From positions 1-51,380 of the forward strand of contig JAROBA010000039.1 in the NCBI GenBank assembly GCA_029432815.1: a DNA stretch of 51,380 bases, in the 5' to 3' direction. Position numbers and translations under genes: made by a program. Each line of letters starts with the position of its first letter. Position 1 is the stretch's first letter. Below the pieces are notes generated by a model. The model was not told where the DNA came from, made no database searches, and saw nothing but the letters and a program-made list of their open reading frames with translations. Shown here piece after piece: positions 38,786 through 42,134 of the stretch. Source of the DNA: Pontiellaceae bacterium B1224 (lineage in GTDB: Bacteria; Verrucomicrobiota; Kiritimatiellia; Kiritimatiellales; Pontiellaceae).

Positions 38786-39193
38786 TTACCGCTGAAAATC
38801 AGCCGTCCATTTCTTTTCGCATTTAATCAGCTCATCGAAACTGAGGAGCTTTTCGGCCTTTCGTAAACTGACGACCCGGCGCTTTCGCTCCTTTTTTTCC
38901 GGCCAATGCTGATACAGTTTACTGACCTCCATGGGAAACAGTTCCAGCTCCACGCTACTGCCTTTGCGCGGAATCGTTACAGAATATGAATGCTTCATCT
39001 TAAGCGCCCCTTTCACCCCCGCTTCTTCAAACGCTTCCTGGATAGCAGACTCATATTTATCTTTGCCTTTGACGGGATTCCCTTTGGGAAAAATCCAGTA
39101 ACCGTTTGTACGGCTGGTAACCAGAACCAGTTTATATTGTCCATTCTTTCGGACAAACGGAATGACGCCGTACTGTTTGGACAGCCTGCTCAT
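38786..39193 (-). CDS. NUDIX hydrolase (DIPP-like)
   Basis: 135 aa. Nudix box at about 40-62: GNPVKGKDKYESAIQEAFEEAGV, with Gln where the motif usually has Arg (Q-E-A-F-E-E); the metal-binding glutamates are kept. The fold and small size resemble diphosphoinositol/diadenosine-polyphosphate and polyphosphate hydrolases. It is the last gene of the five-gene operon; its start overlaps the CYTH stop by 4 bp, so it is translationally coupled. The substrate is inferred only from family and context. Confidence 0.88.
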   Translation of the reverse strand: MSRLSKQYGVIPFVRKNGQYKLVLVTSRTNGYWIFPKGNPVKGKDKYESAIQEAFEEAGVKGALKMKHSYSVTIPRKGSSVELELFPMEVSKLYQHWPEKKERKRRVVSLRKAEKLLSFDELIKCEKKWTADFQR

Positions 39194-39657
39194 TTTTCAG
39201 CCAATCCGTGAATCGCCAATTGCTTGTTTTTATACGCGGGATCTTCGGTGACTTCCCGGCCGAACCACGCGGGCGGCACAAATGCCAGCGCAGACGCCTC
39301 GTCCGGGAATTCCACCTCGCAGAGTTTAAGTCCTGCCAGTGAATCCTCAAAAATATCAATCTCAGCCATCAGTGCATTCGGCAGGGCGACTTTATAGCGG
39401 ACTTTACATACCCGCCGCCCCACGGTCAGGGGCCAAAACTGCTGAAACAGATCCTCTCCGATTTCACTTTCCTGCTCTTCCCGGGTCATGCCTTGCCCGG
39501 TTTTACAGGTGAGAATATATGTCGAGCCCTTCTGTCGCAGACGAACTTCAACGGAATCGTCGGGCTCGGTGATGTATCCCTGAAGAACCGCCACCGGTTC
39601 CTCGCCCATGGAGTCAGGCAGTTCTTTCAGAATAAATTTCCGTTCAATTTCCTTCAT
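39190..39657 (-). CDS. CYTH-domain triphosphate tunnel metalloenzyme
   Basis: 155 aa. The opening MKEIERKF contains the defining ExExK motif (E3, E5, K7). Further tunnel residues follow: VEVRLRQKGSTYILTCKTG, RYKV, AEIDIFEDSLAGLKLCEVEFPD. Bacterial members are often tripolyphosphatases (YgiF/ttm type) and some make cAMP or hydrolyse thiamine triphosphate. ATGA overlaps on both sides (ParA upstream, NUDIX downstream) tie it to the operon. Confidence 0.92.
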   Translation of the reverse strand: MKEIERKFILKELPDSMGEEPVAVLQGYITEPDDSVEVRLRQKGSTYILTCKTGQGMTREEQESEIGEDLFQQFWPLTVGRRVCKVRYKVALPNALMAEIDIFEDSLAGLKLCEVEFPDEASALAFVPPAWFGREVTEDPAYKNKQLAIHGLAEK

Positions 39658-40409
39658 CGCCGCTTCTTCACTATTTTGGATTCAACCTCTGCCCATAGCG
39701 TTTCATAGGATTGAACGGCGGGTTTACGGCCGGCAAAGCTGAGGGCCGGGGCTCTGTGGATTCCCATCTTCTCGATGTGCGTTGAGAACGGGATTTCTGC
39801 TTTCAGAATCTTTTTATGGTTTTTACGCAAGCGTTCCATCGTTTCCACATGCAGGGATTTTCCGCGCTGGACCATGGAAAAGAACGGGAGGATTTTATTC
39901 TTCGCATAGCCCTTATCCTTAAAGAAGTCGTAGAGTTGTTCGAGCGTCCGCTCCGACAGCGTGGTTGGAATGACCGGCACCACAATTTTATGCGCAACCT
40001 TAAATATATTCTCCGACAACAGGGAAATATTCGGAGGGCAATCGAGCAGAATCACATCATACTGATGGTTCACAGAATCCAATGCTTTGTTCAGCCGAGA
40101 ACGGCTGTGTTTCATACGCGAGAGAAAAATATCAAAATCACGGAAGGTCATATTGGCCGGCAGCAGATCCAGGTCTTCAAAATCGCTGGCCCGGATGGCC
40201 TTTATGAAACGTTCCGTGTCTTTGAAAAAACGCTGTTCCTTCAACTTGGCCGATGGTTTCACTCGGAAATAAAACCCGGAAGCCCCCTGCGGATCCAGAT
40301 CGCACAGGAGCGTACGATAGCCTCTTTGAGCACAGGCATACGCCAGATTCACCGACGTTGCGGTTTTTCCAACGCCTCCTTTATTACTGTAGCAGGCCAC
40401 GATCTTCAT
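39654..40409 (-). CDS. ParA/MinD-type partition ATPase
   Basis: 251 aa. The deviant Walker A is KGGVGKT (10-16) with the signature Lys10; Walker A' DLDPQGAS and Walker B VILLDCPPN follow. There is no N-terminal HTH, as in small ParF/McdA-like ParA proteins that move DNA or protein cargo over the nucleoid. It overlaps the CHAD gene upstream and the CYTH gene downstream by 4 bp each. The RHH gene at the head of the operon is a likely ParG-like partner. The cargo is unknown; context points to polyphosphate. Confidence 0.92.
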   Translation of the reverse strand: MKIVACYSNKGGVGKTATSVNLAYACAQRGYRTLLCDLDPQGASGFYFRVKPSAKLKEQRFFKDTERFIKAIRASDFEDLDLLPANMTFRDFDIFLSRMKHSRSRLNKALDSVNHQYDVILLDCPPNISLLSENIFKVAHKIVVPVIPTTLSERTLEQLYDFFKDKGYAKNKILPFFSMVQRGKSLHVETMERLRKNHKKILKAEIPFSTHIEKMGIHRAPALSFAGRKPAVQSYETLWAEVESKIVKKRR

Positions 40410-41926
40410 TTGTCATTCTCTCCAATCATAAACAGGTTGTTAAATGCGGTCCGGGTCTCCGGACTTCCAAAGGCTGCAAGATTTGCGACAATCAGGTCGC
40501 GTTCGCGCAGTTGCTCGCTGTACAGCATGGACGTGAGCGCTCCGATACTTTCCGCAAGGCGCAACCCCTTTTTCCCGCGGATTGTATGATTGTTCATAAA
40601 TTCCTCCAGCGAGACCTGCTGTACGGAACGGTCGTTAAACAAACCCAGATGTTCCTGCATCCGCTTCAGCTTTTTCAACAGGGTTTTAATCTGCTTCTTT
40701 GGAAACAGCGGCGCAAAAGATTCGATCAGATATCGTAGTTTTTTACACTGAATACGGAGCTCATGAATCGTTTCATCCGGCGTTTCAACCGTTATGCTTT
40801 TTGCAATGCGGCAGACCTTGCGATAGCGCTTCATGATCAGGCCGCATCCATATTTCTTTGACGGCGCATTCGCAAATTCACCGCGCAGCTGCTCATTATC
40901 AGGGCCAAACCAATTTTCGAGCCCGGACATTATATTTTGATAATCCTGGCTTTTAAGCATCCGGCGGATCGCCTGATGGGCCCGGTTTCGTTCCTCCTCC
41001 AGCATTTCAAACAAGGTTTCCAGCCCCCTATGCAGACGGGGAGGAACCATGGAAAAGTAATCCGGTTTTGACAGTAAATAAACATCCCGGTCGCGAAGCA
41101 GGTTGGTCTCCTTCATGATTTCGGAGAAGGATTGTTTTAGATGAGCCGTATCTTCTTCGCTCAAGACATTTTTAAACAAACTCAGAACCGACCGGATTTT
41201 ACGGAGGCTGACCCGGTAGTCGTGAAGAAATTCAGTGTCGTAATCAGCAATCACACCCTCTTCATTTTTTCGCGCCACATTCAAATACGTCGTAACCAGC
41301 AAACGTAAGCTATCAAAAACGGGGGCATCCGGTTCCAGTCTGATTTCGGGCTTAGCGGAATAACCGGACGTTTCAAGCGTCAGGATTTCGTGATATTCCG
41401 GAGCAGCTCCGCCCGTCTGCCCGTCCAGCGCCTGGATCAGCTGCTGATGATAGGCGTCATAACCACGCATGGCATGGGTTTGCAGAAAAGACAGACTCTG
41501 TTTTTCCTGCGAAATAATCAGGCCGCTCAACCTACAGCATGTTTTTTTCTCCTCATCCAGTAGCGGAAGAAATAGATTCAAAACATCCACCTCTCCCACC
41601 GGAAAAAGCAGGCGAAGCGCTGTCAGGCGCACAAGATGATCTTTCAAATCGCATTCAGGCAGTGTTTCGGCAAAACGGTTCCACGCCGAACTGAGCTCCA
41701 ATACGTCCGTTTTCGCCGTCTGGACATCTGCACAGATCAGCGTTGTGCCTGCGAGGATGAGCAGTTTCCCCTGACCCGCAAGGATTCCGTCAAAGGTATC
41801 GAGTACCATACCCGACTGCGGCTCGCTCCCGCACAGCTTCAATTTACTGCCTTTTGGTAGCCTTTGATTAATTTTTCGTCCCGTCACCGCACCTGCGATC
41901 ACAAACTGACGACTGTCATTTGTCAT
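40406..41926 (-). CDS. CHAD-domain protein with degenerate CYTH-like N-terminus
   Basis: 506 aa. Residues about 200-500 form a CHAD domain with the conserved basic/His helices (FLHDYRVSLRKIRSVL; IHELRIQCKKLRYLIESF). CHAD domains bind inorganic polyphosphate and target proteins to polyphosphate granules in other bacteria. The first 190 residues are unusual; MVLDTFDGILAGQGKLLIL recalls the DT.DG.L segment of CYTH, but the acidic/basic tunnel residues are missing, so it may be an inactive CYTH in a CYTH-CHAD fusion. Its start overlaps the RHH stop by 11 bp and its stop overlaps the ParA start by 4. Confidence 0.88.
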   Translation of the reverse strand: MTNDSRQFVIAGAVTGRKINQRLPKGSKLKLCGSEPQSGMVLDTFDGILAGQGKLLILAGTTLICADVQTAKTDVLELSSAWNRFAETLPECDLKDHLVRLTALRLLFPVGEVDVLNLFLPLLDEEKKTCCRLSGLIISQEKQSLSFLQTHAMRGYDAYHQQLIQALDGQTGGAAPEYHEILTLETSGYSAKPEIRLEPDAPVFDSLRLLVTTYLNVARKNEEGVIADYDTEFLHDYRVSLRKIRSVLSLFKNVLSEEDTAHLKQSFSEIMKETNLLRDRDVYLLSKPDYFSMVPPRLHRGLETLFEMLEEERNRAHQAIRRMLKSQDYQNIMSGLENWFGPDNEQLRGEFANAPSKKYGCGLIMKRYRKVCRIAKSITVETPDETIHELRIQCKKLRYLIESFAPLFPKKQIKTLLKKLKRMQEHLGLFNDRSVQQVSLEEFMNNHTIRGKKGLRLAESIGALTSMLYSEQLRERDLIVANLAAFGSPETRTAFNNLFMIGENDK

Positions 41927-42074
41927 TCACTTTCCTTTGTTTCTTAAGATACTCTGCAACCAGATTTTCAAGGATCGCCTGGACACTCGTGTCATTCTGA
42001 ATGGCGGCCATTTTCAGTTGTTTCAAAACTTTTTTCTCTAAACGCAACGATGTGTTTTTCCTCTCATCAGCCAT
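41916..42074 (-). CDS. Ribbon-helix-helix protein, ParG/CopG-like, 52 aa
   Basis: A short ORF (stop TGA 41916-41918) whose product has the RHH layout: a flexible start MADERKN, a strand TSLRLEKKV, then helices VLKQLKMAAIQNDTSVQAILENLVAEYL. This spacing matches ParG/omega-type partition proteins and CopG repressors. It overlaps the CHAD start by 11 bp and is the first gene of the operon, so it is likely the operon's repressor and the DNA-binding partner of the ParA ATPase encoded two genes downstream. TCAT repeats lie just upstream. Confidence 0.75.
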   Translation of the reverse strand: MADERKNTSLRLEKKVLKQLKMAAIQNDTSVQAILENLVAEYLKKQRKVNDK

Positions 42075-42095
42075 ACCACACCTCAACATCCTTTA

Positions 42096-42134
42096 ATGAT
42101 TTCATGACGTCATATCATCGTTTCATCACATCAT
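42096..42134. promoter_or_regulatory. TCAT repeat array, candidate RHH operator/centromere
   Basis: TCAT starts at 42102, 42110, 42115, 42123 and 42131 (steps 8, 5, 8, 8), with an inverted ATGA at 42096 and a TGACGTCA palindrome in the middle. RHH proteins such as ParG and omega bind short boxes at 7-8-bp steps. It begins 22 bp upstream of the RHH start. Confidence 0.55.

Follow-up and report, generated by a model that had tools for sequence, protein, structure and literature searches.

The window, that is, the whole stretch of 51,380 nucleotides analysed here, carries five genes on its minus strand that overlap by 11, 4, 4 and 4 bp, and all open reading frames named in an earlier sequence-only reading of this DNA were present. 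The genes, the domains of the CHAD protein and an upstream palindrome are the following.

41916..42074, minus strand: RHH gene, 52 aa; probably the operon's autorepressor, with a ParG-like role possible
40406..41926, minus strand: CHAD gene, 506 aa, with a degenerate CYTH and a long CHAD domain; proposed polyphosphate-granule anchor
41372..41926, minus strand: CYTH/TTM-fold N-terminal domain of the CHAD protein (about residues 1-185), ExExK lost
40418..41359, minus strand: long CHAD domain and C-terminal helices (about residues 190-503)
39654..40409, minus strand: ParA ATPase gene, 251 aa, with a KGGVGKT deviant Walker A motif; CHAD-linked subfamily
39190..39657, minus strand: separate CYTH/TTM hydrolase gene, 155 aa, with a complete ExExK tunnel
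38786..39193, minus strand: NUDIX hydrolase gene, 135 aa, with catalytic glutamates E53, E56 and E57 kept
42104..42113, no strand: palindrome ATGACGTCAT, 30-39 bp 5' of the RHH start; probable RHH operator

Pfam matches of the window proteins above curated cut-offs were CHAD (8e-59), AAA_31/ParA (1.1e-38), CYTH (9e-6) and NUDIX (4e-6). Judged by its motifs, the ATPase is a member of the ParA/MinD family: the deviant Walker A motif that had been read in it (K10, G11, G12, G14, K15, T16) is invariant among 49 sequences, as are D37, D39 and D123. Its closest solved relatives by profile are the chromosomal ParA/Soj proteins (8ray, 6iub and 1wcv). None of the NCBIfam equivalog cut-offs was reached by the window ParA, and the subfamily is therefore apparently unnamed. 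The separate CYTH protein does have the ExExK motif claimed for it; E3, E5, R39, R41, K52, R59, E61, K85, R87, D101, E114 and E116 are invariant and K7 is nearly so. In the NUDIX box E53, E56 and E57 are invariant, and the glutamate of the GX5E element is K44 in the window protein. The active-site residues of both proteins are thus kept and, as the sequence-only reading proposed, both look like catalytically intact hydrolases.

The CHAD protein, the RHH protein and its palindrome

The operon's CHAD gene is the only one in the window's genome. Among solved structures, the best match of its profile was CtCHAD, which has been crystallised with polyphosphate. In an AF2 model of the 506-aa protein (pLDDT 93.8), residues 190-503 superimposed on CtCHAD (6qv7; 6qva with polyphosphate) with a Z score of 36.8 and an rmsd of 1.6 A over 313 residues. 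Polyphosphate binding has been demonstrated for CtCHAD, and ten basic residues that contact the polymer were mutated in that study (PMC6537752). Nine of these ten positions are basic or histidine in the window protein (H235, R238, R242, R278, K366, R369, K370, K418 and K421), and the only non-basic one is M365, in place of R385 of CtCHAD. By analogy with CtCHAD, we infer that the window protein binds polyphosphate and may coat granules. In its CHAD fold and its polyphosphate-contact residues it resembles the CHAD phosins CtCHAD, YgiF and PptA (PMC6537752), CtCHAD being the closest solved relative. Unlike these, it combines CHAD with an ExExK-less CYTH domain, C-terminal helices and an adjacent ParA, whereas proteins of the YgiF type keep an active TTM domain. 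The idea that a C-terminal extension of CHAD sets the ParA-linked members apart was considered and discarded: the extension occurs in linked and in several unlinked members and is not diagnostic.

The CYTH-like N-terminus proposed for this protein stood as a fold. Residues of about 2-185 matched class IV cyclase/TTM folds (modest Z of 7-8; Foldseek probability 1.00), but 60 of the 62 CHAD proteins aligned, the window's included, lack the catalytic ExExK motif in this domain. The two that retain it (L139 and L140) have no ParA neighbour. These observations argue that the CYTH domain of ParA-linked CHAD proteins is probably a pseudo-enzyme. In some copies an intact TTM-like CYTH protein comes from a separate gene.

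The 52-aa protein falls below Pfam cut-offs, while its orthologues in L020 and L091 exceed the RHH_1 cut-off, and on sequence grounds we assign it to the RHH transcription factor family. An alternative in-frame start at 42089 would give 57 aa; the orthologues favour the 52-aa start. Those in L017, L020, L089 and L091 are 51-60% identical to it. A model of the RHH monomer was modest (pLDDT 76) and was not used as a basis for fold claims. At or just 5' of the RHH start, a TGACGTCA core was found in all eight RHH-bearing operons examined. The exact ATGACGTCAT is present in six of the eight copies and has one mismatch in the remaining two; in L017 it overlaps an RHH start that was called too long. 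By contrast, exact ATGACGTCAT was found 5' of CHAD in none of 63 loci that have no RHH gene. Elsewhere in five genomes the exact 10-mer occurred at 2-9 sites per genome, near chance frequency and without clusters, and the idea of TGACGTCA as a genome-wide parS-like array was rejected.

The sequence-only reading had placed a ParA/RHH pair at the core of the motor. This part had to be given up, since the RHH gene is present in a minority of CHAD-ParA loci and, in these, comes with a palindrome of its own at the promoter of the operon. For the same reasons autorepression is the simplest role for RHH, which is probably the operon's autorepressor, predicted to bind TGACGTCA. Its tail is rich in Lys and Arg, and the Paracoccus orthologue (62 aa) gave a weak ParG match; a second, ParG-like role in contacting ParA is therefore possible in the copies that carry RHH.

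Linkage of CHAD and ParA across bacteria

The linkage survey consisted of tblastn and HMM searches of loci retrieved with the window CHAD protein. In four group surveys, a same-strand ParA of the operon's subfamily adjoined CHAD in 59 of 75 CHAD relatives: 11 of 13 in the window's own phylum (window counted), 36 of 46 in Gammaproteobacteria, 4 of 7 in Alphaproteobacteria and 8 of 9 in Desulfobacterota. Since a genome of several thousand genes has only a few ParA genes, random adjacency to any ParA can roughly be estimated at below about 1%. The joint recurrence of the operon genes in other phyla is far above chance. Conservation beyond this genome, on which the earlier reading had staked its proposal, was found, with the CHAD-ParA pair in at least three phyla and the complete gene order elsewhere. 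Among more distant CHAD proteins found in the search for relatives, ParA was a neighbour in 0 of 10. Adjacent ParA was also absent in 16 of the 75 relatives, and in four such genomes that were checked the operon's ParA subfamily was missing from the whole genome; CHAD can therefore function without ParA.

ParA scores in 30 CHAD-bearing genomes were bimodal. Intact matches above 200 bits were present in 25 of them, each directly beside CHAD; in a 26th (G613) the ParA beside CHAD was split by a frameshift, and all other ParA proteins in the 30 genomes scored 91 bits or less. A reciprocal search with ParA through the 369 gammaproteobacterial genomes of the CHAD survey found the subfamily in 56, with CHAD beside it in 41 (38 CHAD neighbours by HMM and three more stand-alone CHAD by Pfam). 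A recognisable CHAD neighbour was missing in the other 15, most of which form one diverged clade. Of the gammaproteobacterial species sampled, about one in ten carries the pair. Distances of CHAD and ParA were correlated in a mirror-tree comparison (r=0.78; 0 of 2000 permutations as high), a value that shared descent alone could yield.

The complete RHH-CHAD-ParA-CYTH-NUDIX order, for which a co-occurrence search had been proposed, recurs in alphaproteobacteria and in relatives that share the window's phylum but not its family. Besides the window it was found in Seohaeicola (L017), in L089 and L091 (another family of the window's class) and on Paracoccus plasmids, where P. marcusii was examined in full and P. 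aestuarii and P. liaowanqingii by annotation only; in P. liaowanqingii the ParA is annotated as two pieces. Neiella has the first four genes (RHH-CHAD-ParA-CYTH), and L092 and L093 have the order ppx-ppk1-NUDIX-CYTH-CHAD-ParA. Since membership is kept while the order is rearranged, these arrangements argue for functional linkage. The CYTH and NUDIX genes are optional and vary in position among CHAD-ParA loci; they are accessory and not part of the core. In the ParA tree the window copy grouped with those of a Desulfobulbaceae MAG and of proteobacteria (support 100/99), which suggests horizontal transfer.

Genes of polyphosphate and phosphate metabolism recur around CHAD. Within the retrieved stretches (up to about 9 kb on either side), 15 of the surveyed loci have PPK1 nearby, 14 have a SixA-like phosphatase, 10 have Ppx/GppA and several have pst/pho genes. 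On pCP157_03, a plasmid of P. marcusii, pstC-pstA-pstB-phoU-phoB precedes the cassette. PPK1 or PPK2 is encoded in 20 of 20 tested genomes of the operon's CHAD subfamily, which is weak evidence because polyphosphate kinases are common in control genomes too. PPK1 is missing from some module-bearing genomes, and most loci have no ppk nearby. Taken with the conserved adjacency and the CtCHAD match with its kept polyphosphate contacts, the polyphosphate and phosphate gene neighbours identify CHAD plus ParA as the core of the operon. Such linkage means that the genes serve a common process; it says nothing on positioning as such.

A candidate granule-positioning system and its rivals

We regard it as fairly probable that the operon encodes a ParA-type, ATP-driven positioning system with polyphosphate granules as its cargo. 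By analogy with CtCHAD, the long CHAD domain would bind polyphosphate and the CHAD protein would coat the granule. As in ParA/McdA systems, the dedicated ParA, dimerised with ATP, would bind the nucleoid; on meeting the granule coat it would hydrolyse its ATP and be released, and granules would in this way be moved, spaced and shared between daughters. More speculatively, ParA might be contacted through the degenerate CYTH domain or the C-terminal helices of CHAD, or by RHH in some copies. CYTH and NUDIX might cleave short polyphosphates or related nucleotides as accessories, and RHH would mainly repress the operon through the upstream TGACGTCA. A granule partition system had been suggested by the sequence-only reading, and the CHAD-ParA link over at least three phyla, the polyphosphate-contact residues, the phosphate-metabolism neighbours and the apparently intact hydrolases lend it partial support, but not with a ParA/RHH pair as the core.

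Each ParA/MinD ATPase positions one specific cargo (PMC10241942). The proposed arrangement is like that of McdAB carboxysome positioning and other ParA/MinD systems, in which the gene of a dedicated ATPase lies beside that of a cargo-associated protein (PMC10241942, PMC13052382). Here a dedicated ATPase is encoded beside CHAD in the 59 loci counted above, with CHAD the putative cargo-associated protein by analogy with its relatives. Unlike in McdAB, the cargo protein would be a CHAD polyphosphate binder, and no McdB-like protein was seen. Polyphosphate is not among the ParA/MinD cargos named in these two articles. ParA partners usually stimulate the ATPase with a basic N-terminal peptide (PMC12204374); a conserved peptide of this kind was sought in the CHAD proteins and not found, a difference from known ParA partners that speaks against the granule model.

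The constant neighbour of CHAD is ParA and not PPK, which bears on the idea that ParA localises or regulates PPK1, PPX, TTM or a PhoU/Pst complex, for example at the pole, rather than finished granules, with CHAD as a shared scaffold. PPK1 and Ppx genes near 15 and 10 loci fit this idea, as does one of the 56 gammaproteobacterial genomes (L206), in which ParA lies directly 3' of PPK1 without CHAD; but the many loci with no ppk nearby and the module genomes without PPK1 leave it an unlikely account. We rate as rather improbable that the genes form an operon for phosphate stress whose ParA is a switch-like ATPase with no spatial role, co-regulated with polyphosphate and triphosphate hydrolases. 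Intact CYTH and NUDIX active sites, the operator-like site upstream and hosts such as G004, which retain CHAD and NUDIX without ParA, would suit such an operon, yet no other protein accompanies CHAD as faithfully as ParA does, CYTH and NUDIX are optional, and among solved structures the DNA-partition ParA/Soj proteins are closest to the operon's ParA.

The combination of a ParA ATPase with a small RHH protein recalls ParFG of TP228, and the basic RHH tail, the weak ParG similarity and the copies on Paracoccus plasmids could be taken to mean that RHH and ParA are a DNA partition pair and the remaining genes passengers. Unlike in ParFG, however, a CHAD gene is inserted and hydrolases are added, the palindrome is scarce and unclustered, RHH is missing in most copies, and pCP157_03, the plasmid that was checked, carries a repABC of its own at coordinate 1. 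Given this repABC and the optional nature of RHH, plasmid partition was rejected, and we give a ParFG-type pair very little credence. Just as hard to credit is a CYTH-CHAD protein that produces cAMP and so ties ATP or polyphosphate state to signalling, as proposed for Acidithiobacillus (PMC6416229). The CYTH fold is common to class IV cyclases, which the N-terminal domain of CHAD resembles, but ExExK is lost in nearly all aligned CHAD proteins, and the two that keep it stand without ParA.

The claim that no system of this composition had been described holds for function within the literature searched and does not hold for gene content. A folD-ppk-parA-CHAD neighbourhood is known in Acidithiobacillus, with conserved parA and CHAD adjoining ppk as here (PMC10892726, PMC6416229); as far as the accessible parts of these sources go, it was read as cAMP signalling (PMC6416229) or studied for copper resistance (PMC10892726), RHH, CYTH and NUDIX genes are unmentioned and granule positioning is not proposed. 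A ParA tied to the positioning of polyphosphate granules was not found in the open-access literature searched; preprints or paywalled work may hold one. Bacterial polyphosphate granules are spaced along the nucleoid. In a 2025 review (PMC13052382) the sole positioning protein named for them is AlgP of Pseudomonas; in Caulobacter the positioning proteins are not identified, the need for energy or ATP is left open, and no ParA is given for polyphosphate granules. The outcome proposed here, an even spacing of granules in connection with the nucleoid, is like that of AlgP, but AlgP acts as a histone H1-like tether and has no ATPase, and the proteins are unrelated (PMC9239181).

The CHAD-ParA pair is thus a concrete candidate for granule positioning; Paracoccus and Seohaeicola have it too, as reportedly does Acidithiobacillus. 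The wider proposal, to which we lean by a small degree, is of a widespread, horizontally moving, ATP-driven system that would position and partition polyphosphate granules through ParA and a CHAD adaptor gripping an inorganic polymer, the first mineral-like polymer among ParA cargos. Altogether, the pairing of CHAD with ParA in three or more phyla, in most cases close to genes of phosphate storage, suggests an undescribed machine for positioning and sharing out phosphate-storage granules. If this is true, a storage polymer would join DNA and protein assemblies in the cargo range of ParA ATPases.

A conserved palindrome upstream of RHH

Upstream of the start of the gene for the 52-aa ribbon-helix-helix protein (RHH), which opens the operon, the following element was noted:

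ATGACGTCAT, a palindrome at window positions 42104-42113

Its core, TGACGTCA, was kept at all RHH-bearing operons (8/8), which span two phyla. Upstream of CHAD in the RHH-less loci, the palindromic 10-mer was found at none of 63.

NUDIX, SixA-like and CYTH genes around CHAD

In two loci (L111 and L135), NUDIX and SixA-like profile matches adjoin on one strand several kb upstream of CHAD, and these adjoining matches possibly represent a NUDIX-SixA fusion. The Paracoccus marcusii locus carries, after the cassette, a second CYTH gene (L226:10256-10753) that is distinct from that of the cassette.

ParA and CHAD apart

A diverged set of ParA proteins of the same family as the operon's ParA was observed without a CHAD neighbour (L200, L204, L205, L207, L208, L210, L212, L213, L215, L217, and L218); its neighbours include TerB-DnaJ, ligase-like, and response-regulator-like genes. 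At another locus without CHAD (L206:6171-8417), a polyphosphate kinase (PPK1) gene is directly followed by a ParA of that family.

The operon at L087, from a genome (G004) of the same genus as the window, retains CHAD and NUDIX without ParA, and no other ParA of the CHAD-linked subfamily was found in that genome. L087/G004 thus represents a natural ParA loss that is usable for comparing granule patterns.
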